Below are positions 36,837 to 41,504 of a DNA stretch of 64,000 bases, piece by piece. Position 1 is the first letter of the stretch. The number at the start of each line of letters is the position of its first letter. The stretch is taken from NCBI GenBank assembly GCA_026390815.1, contig JAPLFH010000040.1, positions 1 through 64,000 of the forward strand, read 5' to 3'. Source of the stretch: Ignavibacteriales bacterium. GTDB taxonomy: Bacteria > Bacteroidota > Ignavibacteria > Ignavibacteriales > SURF-24. The notes under the pieces were generated by a model. It worked only from the letters and a program-made list of their open reading frames with translations, was not told the DNA's origin and ran no database searches. The position numbers were made by a program, and so were the translations under genes.

Positions 36837-36857
36837 AATTTGATCCAACCATAAAAA

Positions 36858-36886
36858 AGCCCGATGGAAACATCGGGCTCTGTTTT
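36858..36886. terminator. Bidirectional terminator between the activase and NOR-like operons
   Basis: Perfect 9-base stem AGCCCGATG / CATCGGGCT with GAAA loop. A-run on the left (T-run for the minus strand) and TGTTTT on the right. It sits between convergent genes and can stop both. Confidence 0.92.
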
Positions 36887-36909: not shown

Positions 36910-38544
36910 TCATTTCTCGGCTGGCAATAAATCAGTCGTTTTTAATTTAGAAGGCATAAAGATTCCAATTACACCTTTCAATCCAACACTCATAACAATA
37001 TTATAGAAGAACGCCAAAAATGCCAGAAGAATCAATGAGCCGGAAAGCGCTGCTAATATCATATAAACATTGAATTCGCCGTTGAGGTAAATTGAACGGC
37101 GTAACATTCCCCTTAATCCAGCCATCCCCATAAAAGCGCCCATTCCAATTCCACCAAGAAGATGTGCCCAGAAATGGAAGTTCGCCAATTTGTTGCTATA
37201 AAGTTTTGCTCCGTTAGTAAGGATTGGAAAGAGAAAATATATTGCCGAATATAGTGTCATTGTCAATCCTACTAAAATTGCAACGTGAACGTGAGGACCA
37301 ACAATCCATTGAGTGTTATGAAGAATTCTATTCAATCCTAAATCAGCCTGCATAATACCCGCTGGAACAGCTAAAGCAAATCCGAGCAATCCGCCAAGTA
37401 AAAATTTTAATGGATGACTCATTTTTAATGGTCTTGCGCTCCAAAGTGTTGCAAGTGTAATAAAGAAAGCTAAACCTTGTGTAATCAGTTCAAACGCAGT
37501 AACCATTTCCCCGGATAGAATTTTTAATATACCTGGCTGTGCCTGATCTGACATTAAATGATGCGACCAGACAGTCCAGCTAACAACCATTTCAATAAAT
37601 AAAGCTGCACGCGCCCAGTTTTCCATAAATAATTTTTTGCCAGTAATTAATGTTGCAAGTAAATACCATGTACCGGCAACAAATATTAAAACCAGTCCAT
37701 CGGCAATTAAATCAAGACCCCACCAGAAAAAATTTTTATATAATAAAGCATCAATAGCAGAATGTTTTAGACTTACTCCAAATAATTCGGCAACCATATA
37801 AACTAATATTAAAACACCGGCGAATAAAATAACCACAGCATTAAAAGCAGTGTCAACTGTTCCTCTTGCTATTGCAGCAACAGGTAGAGAAACCAAATGT
37901 TCTTTTTTCTTTTTTGAAAATAGATTTGTTAAACCAGTTAATCCGAGTGCAGATTTTATTAATGCGCCTTTAGGTTGTTTCTCCCAGCCATCGGGAGTAT
38001 ATGTAATAGTCTTGTAAATATTGATAACAAAAAATGCAGTCCCTACCATTACGAGTGCAATCCCAACGATAAAGAAAGTTCCACCTAAAACACTAAACTG
38101 CGAAAAATCTGCCGGCAAAGGCCAATAAAGTGTGTAGAGAGGAGAATAGTGAGATACAAATCCAGCAAACCAAAACACAAAAGTGCCGATTGCAATTAAC
38201 CAAAAGTTCCAGTTTCCTAATTTAATACTCCACAATGGTTTTTTCATTAAGAATGGAACAAGGAAAAGAAAGGCGCCAAATACAATGGAATATGTAGAAC
38301 CAAAAATTCCTACAAGTGGGTGTGCCGTCATTATAGCAAAAAACTGTTTTGGTTCTACGCCCAAAGCAAGATTGGGATTAACTTCAAATAATCTCATCAA
38401 CATTCCTTCAATAACAACAACACCGTAATAGATCAATCCAACTACAACAAACCGCAATGTTAATTTTTGCATTGGCGTTAGGGAATTAGGTTTGAATAAA
38501 CCTTGTTCTCCGTTTGTTAATATTTGTAAAAAACTCATTTTCAA
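36910..38544 (-). CDS. Haem-copper oxidase-family subunit I, NO-reductase-like, variant active site
   Basis: 544 residues, about 14 helices. Haem ligands are visible: His75 (MTAHPLVGIFG), the pair His418 and His420 (GPHVHVAI), and the metal-binding pair His328-His329 (WTVWSHHLMSD). The helix that should give the first Cu-B or Fe-B ligand reads FFWWGLDLIADG (272-283). Aligned with the NorB motif WWVVHLWVEG, the His is Asp278 and the Glu is Asp282; no HPEVY is found. This argues against O2 reduction by a Cu-B oxidase and for one of the alternative NOR families. From memory, some of those use two His plus one Asp. The operon also has a cupredoxin-like subunit without CuA. Confidence 0.85.
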   Translation of the reverse strand: MKMSFLQILTNGEQGLFKPNSLTPMQKLTLRFVVVGLIYYGVVVIEGMLMRLFEVNPNLALGVEPKQFFAIMTAHPLVGIFGSTYSIVFGAFLFLVPFLMKKPLWSIKLGNWNFWLIAIGTFVFWFAGFVSHYSPLYTLYWPLPADFSQFSVLGGTFFIVGIALVMVGTAFFVINIYKTITYTPDGWEKQPKGALIKSALGLTGLTNLFSKKKKEHLVSLPVAAIARGTVDTAFNAVVILFAGVLILVYMVAELFGVSLKHSAIDALLYKNFFWWGLDLIADGLVLIFVAGTWYLLATLITGKKLFMENWARAALFIEMVVSWTVWSHHLMSDQAQPGILKILSGEMVTAFELITQGLAFFITLATLWSARPLKMSHPLKFLLGGLLGFALAVPAGIMQADLGLNRILHNTQWIVGPHVHVAILVGLTMTLYSAIYFLFPILTNGAKLYSNKLANFHFWAHLLGGIGMGAFMGMAGLRGMLRRSIYLNGEFNVYMILAALSGSLILLAFLAFFYNIVMSVGLKGVIGIFMPSKLKTTDLLPAEK

Positions 38545-38568: not shown

Positions 38569-39117
38569 TTATTCAACTACTTCGATAGCATTTCTCACGA
38601 TCATATTTACTCCCTTAGGACCCGAATATTCAGTTGATCGGATAGAATAAACAGCCGCGCGGTCGAACTGCCAAAGAATATCATTAAGATGACCGGGAAT
38701 TACCTGCATCTGGAATACCATTGAGTTGTCGCTTCTGAATAATCCAAAACCATAAGTTAGATCTTTCGAATCAACTATAAATCTTACTATCTCATTTTTT
38801 GTTATTATTAGTTTTGTTGATGGGAGTTGAATTAGGTGGTTCTTCATAGTGATATGAAATTCCTTATCGGCTTTAATCTCTGCACGATTTAAATCCATCG
38901 GTTTCCATGGAATTGTTTCATGCGTTACAATATGAAGAGAGACTCCGATAACTACCAGAAAAACTACAAACGAATAAAATATTGCTGGTTTGATTCCTTT
39001 ACCGGAACCATCTCTTGTTATCTTGTATGCAAACCACCCCATTAAAGCCATAATTGCAAGGACATAAAAAGTGTAGGCGATTGTTTGTCCCGTCAATACA
39101 GTATTTGAATCAATCAT
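38569..39117 (-). CDS. Cupredoxin-like subunit II lacking CuA ligands
   Basis: 182 residues: two membrane helices, then a beta domain of the cytochrome oxidase subunit II type. Where CuA would bind (CxEYCGxxHxxM) the sequence reads STEYSGPKGVNM, so both Cys and the His are gone; only EY, G and M remain. It therefore cannot carry CuA and should not accept electrons from cytochrome c by that route. Paired by a 24-base gap with the NOR-like subunit I. Confidence 0.82.
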   Translation of the reverse strand: MIDSNTVLTGQTIAYTFYVLAIMALMGWFAYKITRDGSGKGIKPAIFYSFVVFLVVIGVSLHIVTHETIPWKPMDLNRAEIKADKEFHITMKNHLIQLPSTKLIITKNEIVRFIVDSKDLTYGFGLFRSDNSMVFQMQVIPGHLNDILWQFDRAAVYSIRSTEYSGPKGVNMIVRNAIEVVE

Positions 39118-39191: not shown

Positions 39192-39650
39192 TTAAAACTT
39201 TTCTCCTTTAGCTTCCCGAATATGACTACCAACAGATCTAATTCTTCCCCACATAGAAATAAAAAAAATAATGATTCCAAATACCTGTCCAGCGGCAGAA
39301 GCCACAAGTAATAATTTTAGAAGTTGGTTTGGCAAAATAAAAGATGAAATAACTTGAGATAAAAATCTGATTATAGTTGAGGAAGTAATTATAAAATATG
39401 TAGTAAGAATCAGATCCGGTTTGTAAAGTTTATCATCTTTCTCGGCTCGTGGAAAGAACCATAACGCCACACCCATAATCATCATCATTACAGAACCAAG
39501 CAGTATTATATTTGTGTGGGCAGAAACCAATTCCGGATGTGGCCAAATGCTATAGAATTCTTTTGCTATCAAAATGTAAAGTCCGGATAGTATTCCTGTT
39601 ACAAGAAAGATTATGCTGGTTTTTATAAAATACCTAACTGTGGAAAACAT
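39192..39650 (-). CDS. Four-helix membrane protein related to haem-copper subunit I helices
   Basis: 152 residues with four predicted helices. The segment SAHTNIILLGSVMMMIMGVALWFFPR resembles the helix with the low-spin haem His of haem-copper oxidases (a His in SAHTN). The protein is too short to be a full subunit I. The start overlaps the stop of the ABM gene by one base. It may be a small accessory subunit of the NOR-like enzyme. Assignment is by resemblance and context. Confidence 0.7.
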   Translation of the reverse strand: MFSTVRYFIKTSIIFLVTGILSGLYILIAKEFYSIWPHPELVSAHTNIILLGSVMMMIMGVALWFFPRAEKDDKLYKPDLILTTYFIITSSTIIRFLSQVISSFILPNQLLKLLLVASAAGQVFGIIIFFISMWGRIRSVGSHIREAKGEKF

Positions 39651-39994
39651 TAGATATCCTTGTTAAAATCTCTTGAATTAAAATAATATTTTTTTTGTTC
39701 GTTATCTATAATAACATTATAAAACTTTGCTGAAGGCGAACCTTCAAGTAATGGTTTTAATTTAGCAAAAGATTCTTTTTGTTCTTTGCTTGTATGCATA
39801 TTCATAAAGGTCTTATCGTTTTCGTGTTCCATTAAAATAACATAGCTTCCAGTTCCTTTAGTGTGTTGCAAGAGTCGCCTGGAAATAAATCCAGTAAATT
39901 TTTTGTAAACGCTATTCGACCATTTAAACCACTCAAGAAACTCAGATTCTTTGCCAGCTTTTATTGGCGGGAACTCAATAGTGTTTATAAACAT
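39650..39994 (-). CDS. ABM-domain (antibiotic biosynthesis monooxygenase-like) protein
   Basis: 114 residues with the ferredoxin-like ABM fold: FPPIKAGKESEFLEWF, GFISRRLLQHTKGTGSYVIL, and an alpha/beta end. Such proteins can be haem-degrading or small monooxygenases, but many have no known role. It is in the NOR-like operon between the DUF6448 gene and the small membrane protein. A haem-related role is possible but not shown. Confidence 0.8.
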   Translation of the reverse strand: MFINTIEFPPIKAGKESEFLEWFKWSNSVYKKFTGFISRRLLQHTKGTGSYVILMEHENDKTFMNMHTSKEQKESFAKLKPLLEGSPSAKFYNVIIDNEQKKYYFNSRDFNKDI

Positions 39995-40009: not shown

Positions 40010-40636
40010 TTAATGTTTGTGATTAGATTCTGCTTTTTCCAATTTGTGCTTTTTCTCAGCCTTTGTCTTTTCAGATGAATCATACAAGTGCTCAGCCGTA
40101 TGCAGAAACTCTACATATGCCTTTACATACTTTCTACCTGCATCAACATCATTGATATTATAATTCTTATTTTCAATTACTTCTTTAAAGAGCATTTGAA
40201 TTTTATCAATTGGCAGATTTTTCTGTTTATAAACTTTTTCGAGGGGTTCTAGTTTGCCTTTCTCAATAGATAAATCTGCGGCGGGTATCACTGCACCTAA
40301 ATCTCTTCCGGCTGGTTTCAATCCTGTATATGGTTCGCCTTCACCTGCTCTATGTATTCTTACTAAGGTTTCAAAGAAGTACATATCAGCAAGGTCTTTT
40401 GCTTCCTCATTCAGTTTCCTTACGGAAAGAGTTTTCTTAAAAGCATCTTTAATAAAATATTCATCTTCCTTTTGAACCCATATCAGGACTAAATTCACAT
40501 TGTTGGATTCCAAAGCTTTCATTGCAGTTTTTACAACCGGACCATCCAGTCCGTCGCAATGAGCATAAATATTTTTTGGAGACAAGATTAATATGCTGAA
40601 TATAATTAGTAAACTGATTCTTCTTAATGTTCTCAT
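40010..40636 (-). CDS. Exported DUF6448 protein with a His-Cys-Asp mature N-terminus
   Basis: 208 residues. The signal peptide should be cut after IYA, leaving a mature N-terminus HCDGLDGPVV. The rest is helical (KAMKALESNNVNLVLIWVQ, then VEFLHTAEHLY) and ends in a His/Lys-rich tail. I recognise the family as DUF6448, of unknown function. The first residues recall the nickel hook of Ni-superoxide dismutase (HCDLPCG), with His1, Cys2, Asp3 and Gly7 matched but Cys6 replaced by Asp. The gene is first in the NOR-like operon, behind an FNR/DNR-type site. Confidence 0.85.
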   Translation of the reverse strand: MRTLRRISLLIIFSILILSPKNIYAHCDGLDGPVVKTAMKALESNNVNLVLIWVQKEDEYFIKDAFKKTLSVRKLNEEAKDLADMYFFETLVRIHRAGEGEPYTGLKPAGRDLGAVIPAADLSIEKGKLEPLEKVYKQKNLPIDKIQMLFKEVIENKNYNINDVDAGRKYVKAYVEFLHTAEHLYDSSEKTKAEKKHKLEKAESNHKH

Positions 40637-40703: not shown

Positions 40704-40719
40704 ATTGACTTAAGTCAAT
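40704..40719. promoter_or_regulatory. FNR/DNR/FixK-type operator, perfect palindrome
   Basis: ATTGACTTAAGTCAAT is an exact 16-base palindrome of the TTGAC-N4-GTCAA class. It lies 67 bases upstream of the DUF6448 start codon on the minus strand and next to a CRP/FNR-family gene. It most likely controls the NOR-like operon, probably as an activator site. Confidence 0.75.
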
Positions 40720-40808: not shown

Positions 40809-41504
40809 TCAACGAGCCATTTCTCTTAAGCGATTGAAGTCCTTAATAAATATTTTTTTATCTGCAACTCTAATAAGTCCTTCATTTTCAAGTTTGTGAA
40901 AAGTACGGGAAAGTATTTCGGTGATTGTTCCAAGATAGGAAGCAAGTGTTTTTTTAGAAATGACTAGTTTAATAATTGGTTCAGTAAGTTTTTCTGTACC
41001 TGATCGAATAACTTCATTTATTAAATATTCAGCAAGACGGATTGAAACATCCTTTAGAGTCAAGTCTTCGACTTTTCTTGTTAGCGCTCTCATTCTTTTT
41101 GCAAAACCGCTTAACATTTTAAAGCAAATTGTTGGGTTCTCCAACAATAATTTCTTAAAACCGTCGCCTGGAATAAATAATAAAGTACAATCATCCACAG
41201 CCTGCGCATTAACAGGATAAATTTTTCCTTCAAATAATGGGACATCTGCAAATGCATTAAACGGTTTAATTATATGAAGAGTTAGTTCTTTACCCCGGGA
41301 AGTTTTTCTATAAACCTTTATTGTTCCTTTTAGTAAAATATAAAAGCCTTTGTATATACTACCTTCCCTAAAAATAACATCATTTTTTTTATGGCAATCA
41401 ATACTGCTGATAGATGCTATTTGCATTAACTGTTCTGTATCAAGTTCAGAGAATAGATGAAGCTCGCGAAGTTTATCTTTTATTATTATCCGGTTAATAT
41501 TCAT
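40809..41504 (-). CDS. CRP/FNR-family transcription regulator (probable NO/redox responder)
   Basis: 231 residues: cyclic-nucleotide-like sensor domain, long dimerisation helix, and winged helix SKKTLASYLGTITEILSRTF. There is no N-terminal FNR-type Cys cluster, so it is not an iron-sulfur oxygen sensor. DNR/NnrR-like haem or NO sensing is plausible since it sits directly upstream of a NOR-like operon whose promoter carries a TTGAC-N4-GTCAA palindrome. It has its own promoter in the 45-base gap after uvrB, or is co-transcribed with uvrB. Confidence 0.88.
   Translation of the reverse strand: MNINRIIIKDKLRELHLFSELDTEQLMQIASISSIDCHKKNDVIFREGSIYKGFYILLKGTIKVYRKTSRGKELTLHIIKPFNAFADVPLFEGKIYPVNAQAVDDCTLLFIPGDGFKKLLLENPTICFKMLSGFAKRMRALTRKVEDLTLKDVSIRLAEYLINEVIRSGTEKLTEPIIKLVISKKTLASYLGTITEILSRTFHKLENEGLIRVADKKIFIKDFNRLREMAR

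Follow-up and report, generated by a model that had tools for sequence, protein, structure and literature searches.

Conserved His-Cys-Asp start of DUF6448 proteins, a candidate exported metal-binding family linked to nitric oxide detoxification genes

The nickel hook of nickel superoxide dismutase (Ni-SOD), HCXXPCGXY at the start of the mature protein, needs Cys6, and the signature HCXXPCG does not include Asp3. Histidine is the first mature residue in just 2.6% of the exported proteins in a published signal-peptide set, and exported N-terminal-His proteins of other families have been found experimentally to bind metals (PMC12537917). Three such families, DUF4198, DUF6702 and the anglerases, are presented as exported N-terminal-His metalloproteins found by signal-strapping, and they are described as beta-sandwich proteins (PMC12537917). 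A third point of reference is the nitric oxide (NO) reductase gNOR, for which an Asp is listed as an active-site residue (PMC8756737, Table A4). The DUF6448 family (PF20046), which occurs widely in bacteria and also in some archaea, has no function recorded in its Pfam entry and is named nowhere in the literature searched, PMC12537917 included. The comparisons below give this widespread, functionally unassigned family a testable hypothesis, in which an N-terminal His-Cys-Asp site created by cleavage and carried on an unrecognised fold is tied to NO detoxification in bacteria and archaea.

The window, i.e. the whole stretch of 64,000 nucleotides from an Ignavibacteriales contig that was analysed, encodes on the reverse strand a DUF6448 precursor of 208 residues (40010..40636), identified from its open reading frame and a Pfam match (E 7.3e-55, 185.4 bits against a curated cut-off of 27). 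Since this match covers the whole PF20046 model (positions 1–147) above the cut-off, the protein is a full-length member of the family. The match starts only at precursor residue 31, past the His-Cys-Asp (HCD) motif, and the Pfam model thus misses the conserved mature start. Residues 1–25 (40562..40636, reverse strand) form a basic-hydrophobic predicted signal peptide, which by the family-wide cleavage register ends in IYA directly before His, and open reading frame and signal prediction agree with the mature start HCDGLDGPVV given in the first-pass annotation of this DNA (H1, C2, D3, G4, L5, D6, G7 and Val9 in mature numbering). The codons of mature residues 1–3 lie at 40553..40561, those of a strictly conserved segment, HRAGEGEPYTGLKP (mature residues 70–83, with H70, R71, E74 and G80), at 40313..40354, and those of a His-containing C-terminal tail that is a feature of the family (mature residues 160–183) at 40013..40084, all on the reverse strand. 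A weak match to TetR_C_5/QacR (E 0.006) fell below the cut-off of that family, and a cluster of antisense open reading frames across the gene was judged spurious.

The conservation of the mature start was assessed on homologues from the window's phylum, a named genome collection and plasmids, and further from the phyla of the Methanosarcina, betaproteobacterial and deltaproteobacterial centre genomes. The 134 distinct sequences entered via the loose pattern [HQ]CD...[GV]P, by which members lacking the motif would be missed, and in the homologue listings a single fragment with an in-frame stop codon was without HCD. Cys2 and Asp3 were present in all 134 and His1 in 133, the one exception starting its mature protein with QCD. 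The following positions were nearly as constant (G7 133/134, P8 134/134, V9 130/134), as were those of the internal segment, with H70 in 133 sequences (one gap) and R71, E74 and G80 in 134 each, so that over many phyla HCD, H70, R71, E74 and G80 vary hardly or not at all. In 128 of 133 mature proteins there is no cysteine besides Cys2, and at least three histidines occur in the last 30 residues of 87% of the family, compared to 4% of neighbouring genes.

Export, which had been proposed for the window protein, is supported by the register of the predicted signal-peptidase site. Ala directly precedes His in 115 of the 123 exported homologues, and a simplified -3/-1 rule is satisfied exactly at His in 118, at +1, +2 or +3 in none, and at a rival site two residues earlier in 54. 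As residue -2 is variable while the register is exact, the register has probably been selected, and signal cleavage in exported DUF6448 is predicted to fall directly before His1. A conserved His immediately after the predicted site, the mark of exported N-terminal-His metalloproteins, is accordingly found in 118/123. DUF6448 resembles the signal-strapping families in this cut before a conserved His and in residues and context that suggest metal binding, which for DUF6448 is a prediction. It differs from them in being all-helical, in its invariant adjacent Cys-Asp pair and in its NO-stress context, and its first His is conserved in 133/134 sequences, compared to the 79% and 65% reported for signal-strapping families (PMC12537917).

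Ten archaeal proteins, to which a fragment adds an eleventh, lack a signal peptide, and their plausible start leads directly into MPPHCD. A tree with a midpoint root only places them as a single group (support 93/97) within the exported family, which indicates from the sequences that the signal peptide was lost in a monophyletic archaeal clade while HCD was kept. Homologues without His or Cys at the mature N-terminus had been named in advance as evidence against the first-pass reading; the archaeal MPPHCD proteins, in which His is not at the encoded N-terminus, are partly of this kind, while exported members are predicted to keep the His start. Retention of HCD without export means that there is no obvious need for a free N-terminal amine. 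The MPP is invariant in this group, so removal by an aminopeptidase is possible, and a role of the free amine as a ligand there becomes less likely. Some of the cytosolic archaeal copies lie near Hcp genes, and in one Methanosarcina locus (L051, 5865-7259) an exported and a cytosolic copy stand in tandem.

An AlphaFold2 model built from 61 mature sequences is all helical (pLDDT 95.2, pTM 0.86), in line with the helical remainder expected for the window protein. DSSP assigned isolated bridge residues at positions 4 and 82 of the model, for which the simplest placement is that the HCD start rests against the HRxGEGxPYTGLKP segment; as the bridge partners are deduced from the DSSP assignment, this packing is stated as what the model seems to show. 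A model of a cytosolic archaeal protein (pLDDT 91.9) has a nearly identical helix order and equivalent bridge residues at 7 and 85. Foldseek comparison of the DUF6448 model with solved structures (PDB) and viral models returned nothing with E below 1; the best PDB match had an E-value of 1.2, and all matches in the PDB and the viral library, two cytochrome c' chains included, were set aside as noise. The predicted fold is thus new relative to the solved structures and viral models compared. In one clade (L026-L028, L031, L051 and L127-L136) H154/E157/D96 are exchanged for V or L154/H157/E96 in mature numbering, i.e. a His moved by one helical turn together with an Asp-to-Glu change, which suggests that these residues touch and matter. 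The exchange was considered as repeated co-variation and as an answer to losing the free N-terminus. In the tree, all members with it fall into a single group that also holds exported proteins, so the exchange may have happened once and is not correlated with localisation.

In the window, DUF6448 heads a tight run of five genes on the reverse strand. It is followed by a small protein with an antibiotic biosynthesis monooxygenase-like (ABM) domain (39650..39994, PF03992), a 152-aa membrane protein with a weak COX1-like match under the Pfam cut-off (39192..39650), a CoxB-like subunit II (38569..39117) and a COX1-family catalytic subunit (36910..38544), and a terminator-like hairpin (36856..36881, reverse strand) closes the run. 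The CoxB-like subunit has zero cysteines and hence no CuA site. The COX1-family protein keeps a conserved HH pair and shows WGLDLIADG where a ligand helix would be usual, a feature conserved in aligned relatives and positioned by eye. As Asp is an active-site residue of gNOR (PMC8756737), this Asp-containing helix led to the COX1-family partner being called a gNOR-like NO reductase, a putative assignment drawn from the helix and not from named gNOR sequences. The likeness to gNOR would thus comprise a COX1-family subunit with an Asp in its putative active-site helix, along with a CoxB-like subunit that lacks CuA, whereas the window enzyme differs in having two Asp residues (LDLIAD) and additional genes for the ABM, 152-aa and DUF6448 proteins.

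Upstream and in the same direction lies a gene for a CRP/FNR-family regulator (40809..41504, reverse strand), which also adjoins DUF6448 in many relatives. Between the two genes, with its centre about 75 bases before the ATG, stands a perfect FNR/CRP-type palindrome, TTGACTTAAGTCAA (40705..40718); an exact TTGACN4GTCAA occurs nowhere else in this 4.5 Mb genome. A perfect TTGAN6TCAA was present upstream of 11 family members (8 distinct), compared to 1.3 expected from mononucleotide shuffles.

Elsewhere, the neighbours of DUF6448 include, in various genomes, qNOR, cNOR, gNOR-like enzymes, Hcp, flavorubredoxin, RIC, hemerythrin and HAO-like multihaem proteins. When qNOR, cNOR, gNOR-like, Hcp, flavorubredoxin, RIC and hemerythrin genes were counted, at least one lay within about 6 kb at 31 of 72 loci, or at 28 of 72 without hemerythrin-only loci; the remaining ~57%, some of them incomplete loci, had none of these genes within reach. 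In the window's phylum, qNOR was found in 9/34 genomes with DUF6448 and 30/362 without (Fisher p=0.003, uncorrected for kinship), and 7 of the 9 qNOR genes in DUF6448 genomes were within about 2 kb of DUF6448. A gNOR-like gene occurred in 15 of 164 genomes of the window's order, 9 of which also had DUF6448, within about 2.5 kb in 8 cases; in the other 6, some of them incomplete assemblies, no DUF6448 was detected. Its presence in 9/15 gNOR-like genomes marks DUF6448 as an accessory rather than an obligate NOR factor. Hcp (PF03063) was found in none of the 34 phylum genomes with DUF6448, which limits the Hcp link to archaea and some other bacteria. Gene order in a Pelobacter NO cluster is hcp-PAS-ric-flavorubredoxin-DUF6448-ferredoxin-ABM, with the small ABM gene again after DUF6448 as in the window, and in Tetragenococcus osmophilus it is CRP/FNR-DUF6448-HMA-ric. 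The link between DUF6448 and NO detoxification genes is real, and the tie to an NO-reductase-like system noted at first pass is borne out by the gNOR-like operon, the FNR-type palindrome and the NO genes near homologues. In Nitrospirota and Elusimicrobia, the genes flanking DUF6448 include multihaem cytochromes with a match to the hydroxylamine/hydrazine dehydrogenase family.

The reading preferred here, with a probability of roughly 60%, is that DUF6448 serves the nitric-oxide/nitrosative-stress response as an exported accessory protein which binds a transition metal. Signal peptidase I would cut exactly before His1, as the conserved register suggests, and place HCD at the new N-terminus, where His1 (through its side chain, and its amine where free), Cys2 and Asp3 would lie against the HRxGEGxPYTGLKP segment of the helical domain and may form one metal site together with it, while the His-rich tail may capture or exchange metal. 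In the window, the protein would be made from the first gene of the five-gene operon with the putative gNOR-like NO reductase; the upstream CRP/FNR-type regulator probably switches this operon on via the palindrome at 40705-40718, presumably in response to NO, and outside the cytoplasm DUF6448 would most likely deal with NO chemistry or with metal that NO has displaced. The invariant HCD, H70, R71, E74 and G80, the exact register, the single Cys and the His-rich tail count for metal binding, as does the metal binding found by experiment for exported N-terminal-His proteins of other families (PMC12537917), and the NO gene context and FNR-type palindrome for a role in nitrosative stress. Against this explanation count the ~57% of loci where none of the counted NO genes was found, the non-terminal His of the archaeal proteins and the six gNOR-like genomes without DUF6448. 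If DUF6448 does bind metal, the N-terminal-histidine metalloproteins gain a class that is helical and contains cysteine, and NO defence perhaps gains an extracytoplasmic component missing so far.

A sharper form of this explanation, possible though tentative, is that DUF6448 is a metal chaperone or buffer and not an enzyme, with HCD and the His-rich tail serving to capture or deliver Fe, Cu or Zn displaced by NO or needed by NO reductases and repair proteins. Apart from the tail itself, this would fit the neighbours, which include HMA metal-binding proteins, RIC and Dps-type proteins as well as a metal P-type ATPase beside DUF6448 in Lactobacillales plasmids, and it would fit an accessory, non-obligate relation to the gNOR-like enzyme. 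The strict conservation of H70, R71, E74 and the GEGxPYTGLKP loop, however, looks more like a specific site than like loose buffering, and DUF6448 accompanies NO reductases with differing metal needs.

The other sharper form makes DUF6448 an enzyme whose N-terminal His-Cys-Asp metal centre removes NO or reactive nitrogen or oxygen species outside the cytoplasm. The near-invariant set of candidate ligands and the co-location with three unrelated types of NO reductase, Hcp and flavorubredoxin are in its favour, but no electron donor is consistently encoded alongside, and neither fold nor sequence comparison gave a relative of known activity, which leaves it rather unlikely. The most specific version would be a new class of NO-stress metalloenzyme, all-helical and with a fold unseen in solved structures, in which cleavage creates a single HCD metal site and a cytosolic archaeal branch has kept that site; this version is held to be about as unlikely.

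Less probable again is that HCD serves as a structural cap, in which N-terminal packing accounts for the motif and the Cys is no ligand; the protein would then act, free of metal, as a scaffold or binding protein. Persistence of the motif in cytosolic homologues, away from the encoded N-terminus, agrees with such a cap, as do the bridge residues 4 and 82, which imply that the segment packs onto the domain; a cap would nevertheless leave unexplained why practically all members have retained three neighbouring side chains of the metal-binding kind together with a His-rich tail, and why the cleavage register is held exactly at His.

The suggestion that DUF6448 is a distant Ni-SOD relative with a nickel hook is highly improbable: H1, C2, D3 and G7 agree with mature Ni-SOD (PF09055, PDB 1Q0D), and both proteins are processed and helical, but position 6 is Asp, as already recognised at first pass, usually no other cysteine is present to supply the second thiolate, and the reading therefore fails. 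DUF6448 is also longer, and of Pro5, Gly7 and Tyr9 in the hook only Gly7 agrees, with Leu5 and Val9 in the window protein; the shared D3 lies outside the signature. Alignment of DUF6448 to 1Q0D with hhalign gave a probability of 0.3% (E 0.21), PF09055 was absent from the Pfam search of DUF6448 and Ni-SOD chains from the PDB profile search, both to E≤10, and no Ni-SOD was among the best 50 of 63 Foldseek PDB matches. A search of the window's own genome for Ni-SOD found none, but carries no weight as the control gave no signal either; nickel families were absent from the 25 commonest neighbour families. DUF6448 thus shows no detectable relation to Ni-SOD, nickel is without specific support, and an HCD start alone is insufficient to make a Ni-SOD.

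A signal peptidase I gene lies directly 3' of DUF6448 on plasmids of Aerococcus (L113, 6683-7216) and Tetragenococcus halophilus (L114, 6936-7496), an arrangement that recalls the dedicated maturation protease of Ni-SOD; in these two plasmids its similarity to sod_Ni_protease is weak and far below the cut-off, and no signal peptidase stands beside DUF6448 on the T. osmophilus plasmid. Large plasmids of, among others, Klebsiella, Citrobacter and Salmonella carry DUF6448 too, and at one locus (L117) it lies near a ferric-reductase/PepSY and two-component cluster, not NO genes. An unannotated, apparently partial DUF6448 match is present on pSymA of Sinorhizobium meliloti (NC_003037.1, 618975-619304).
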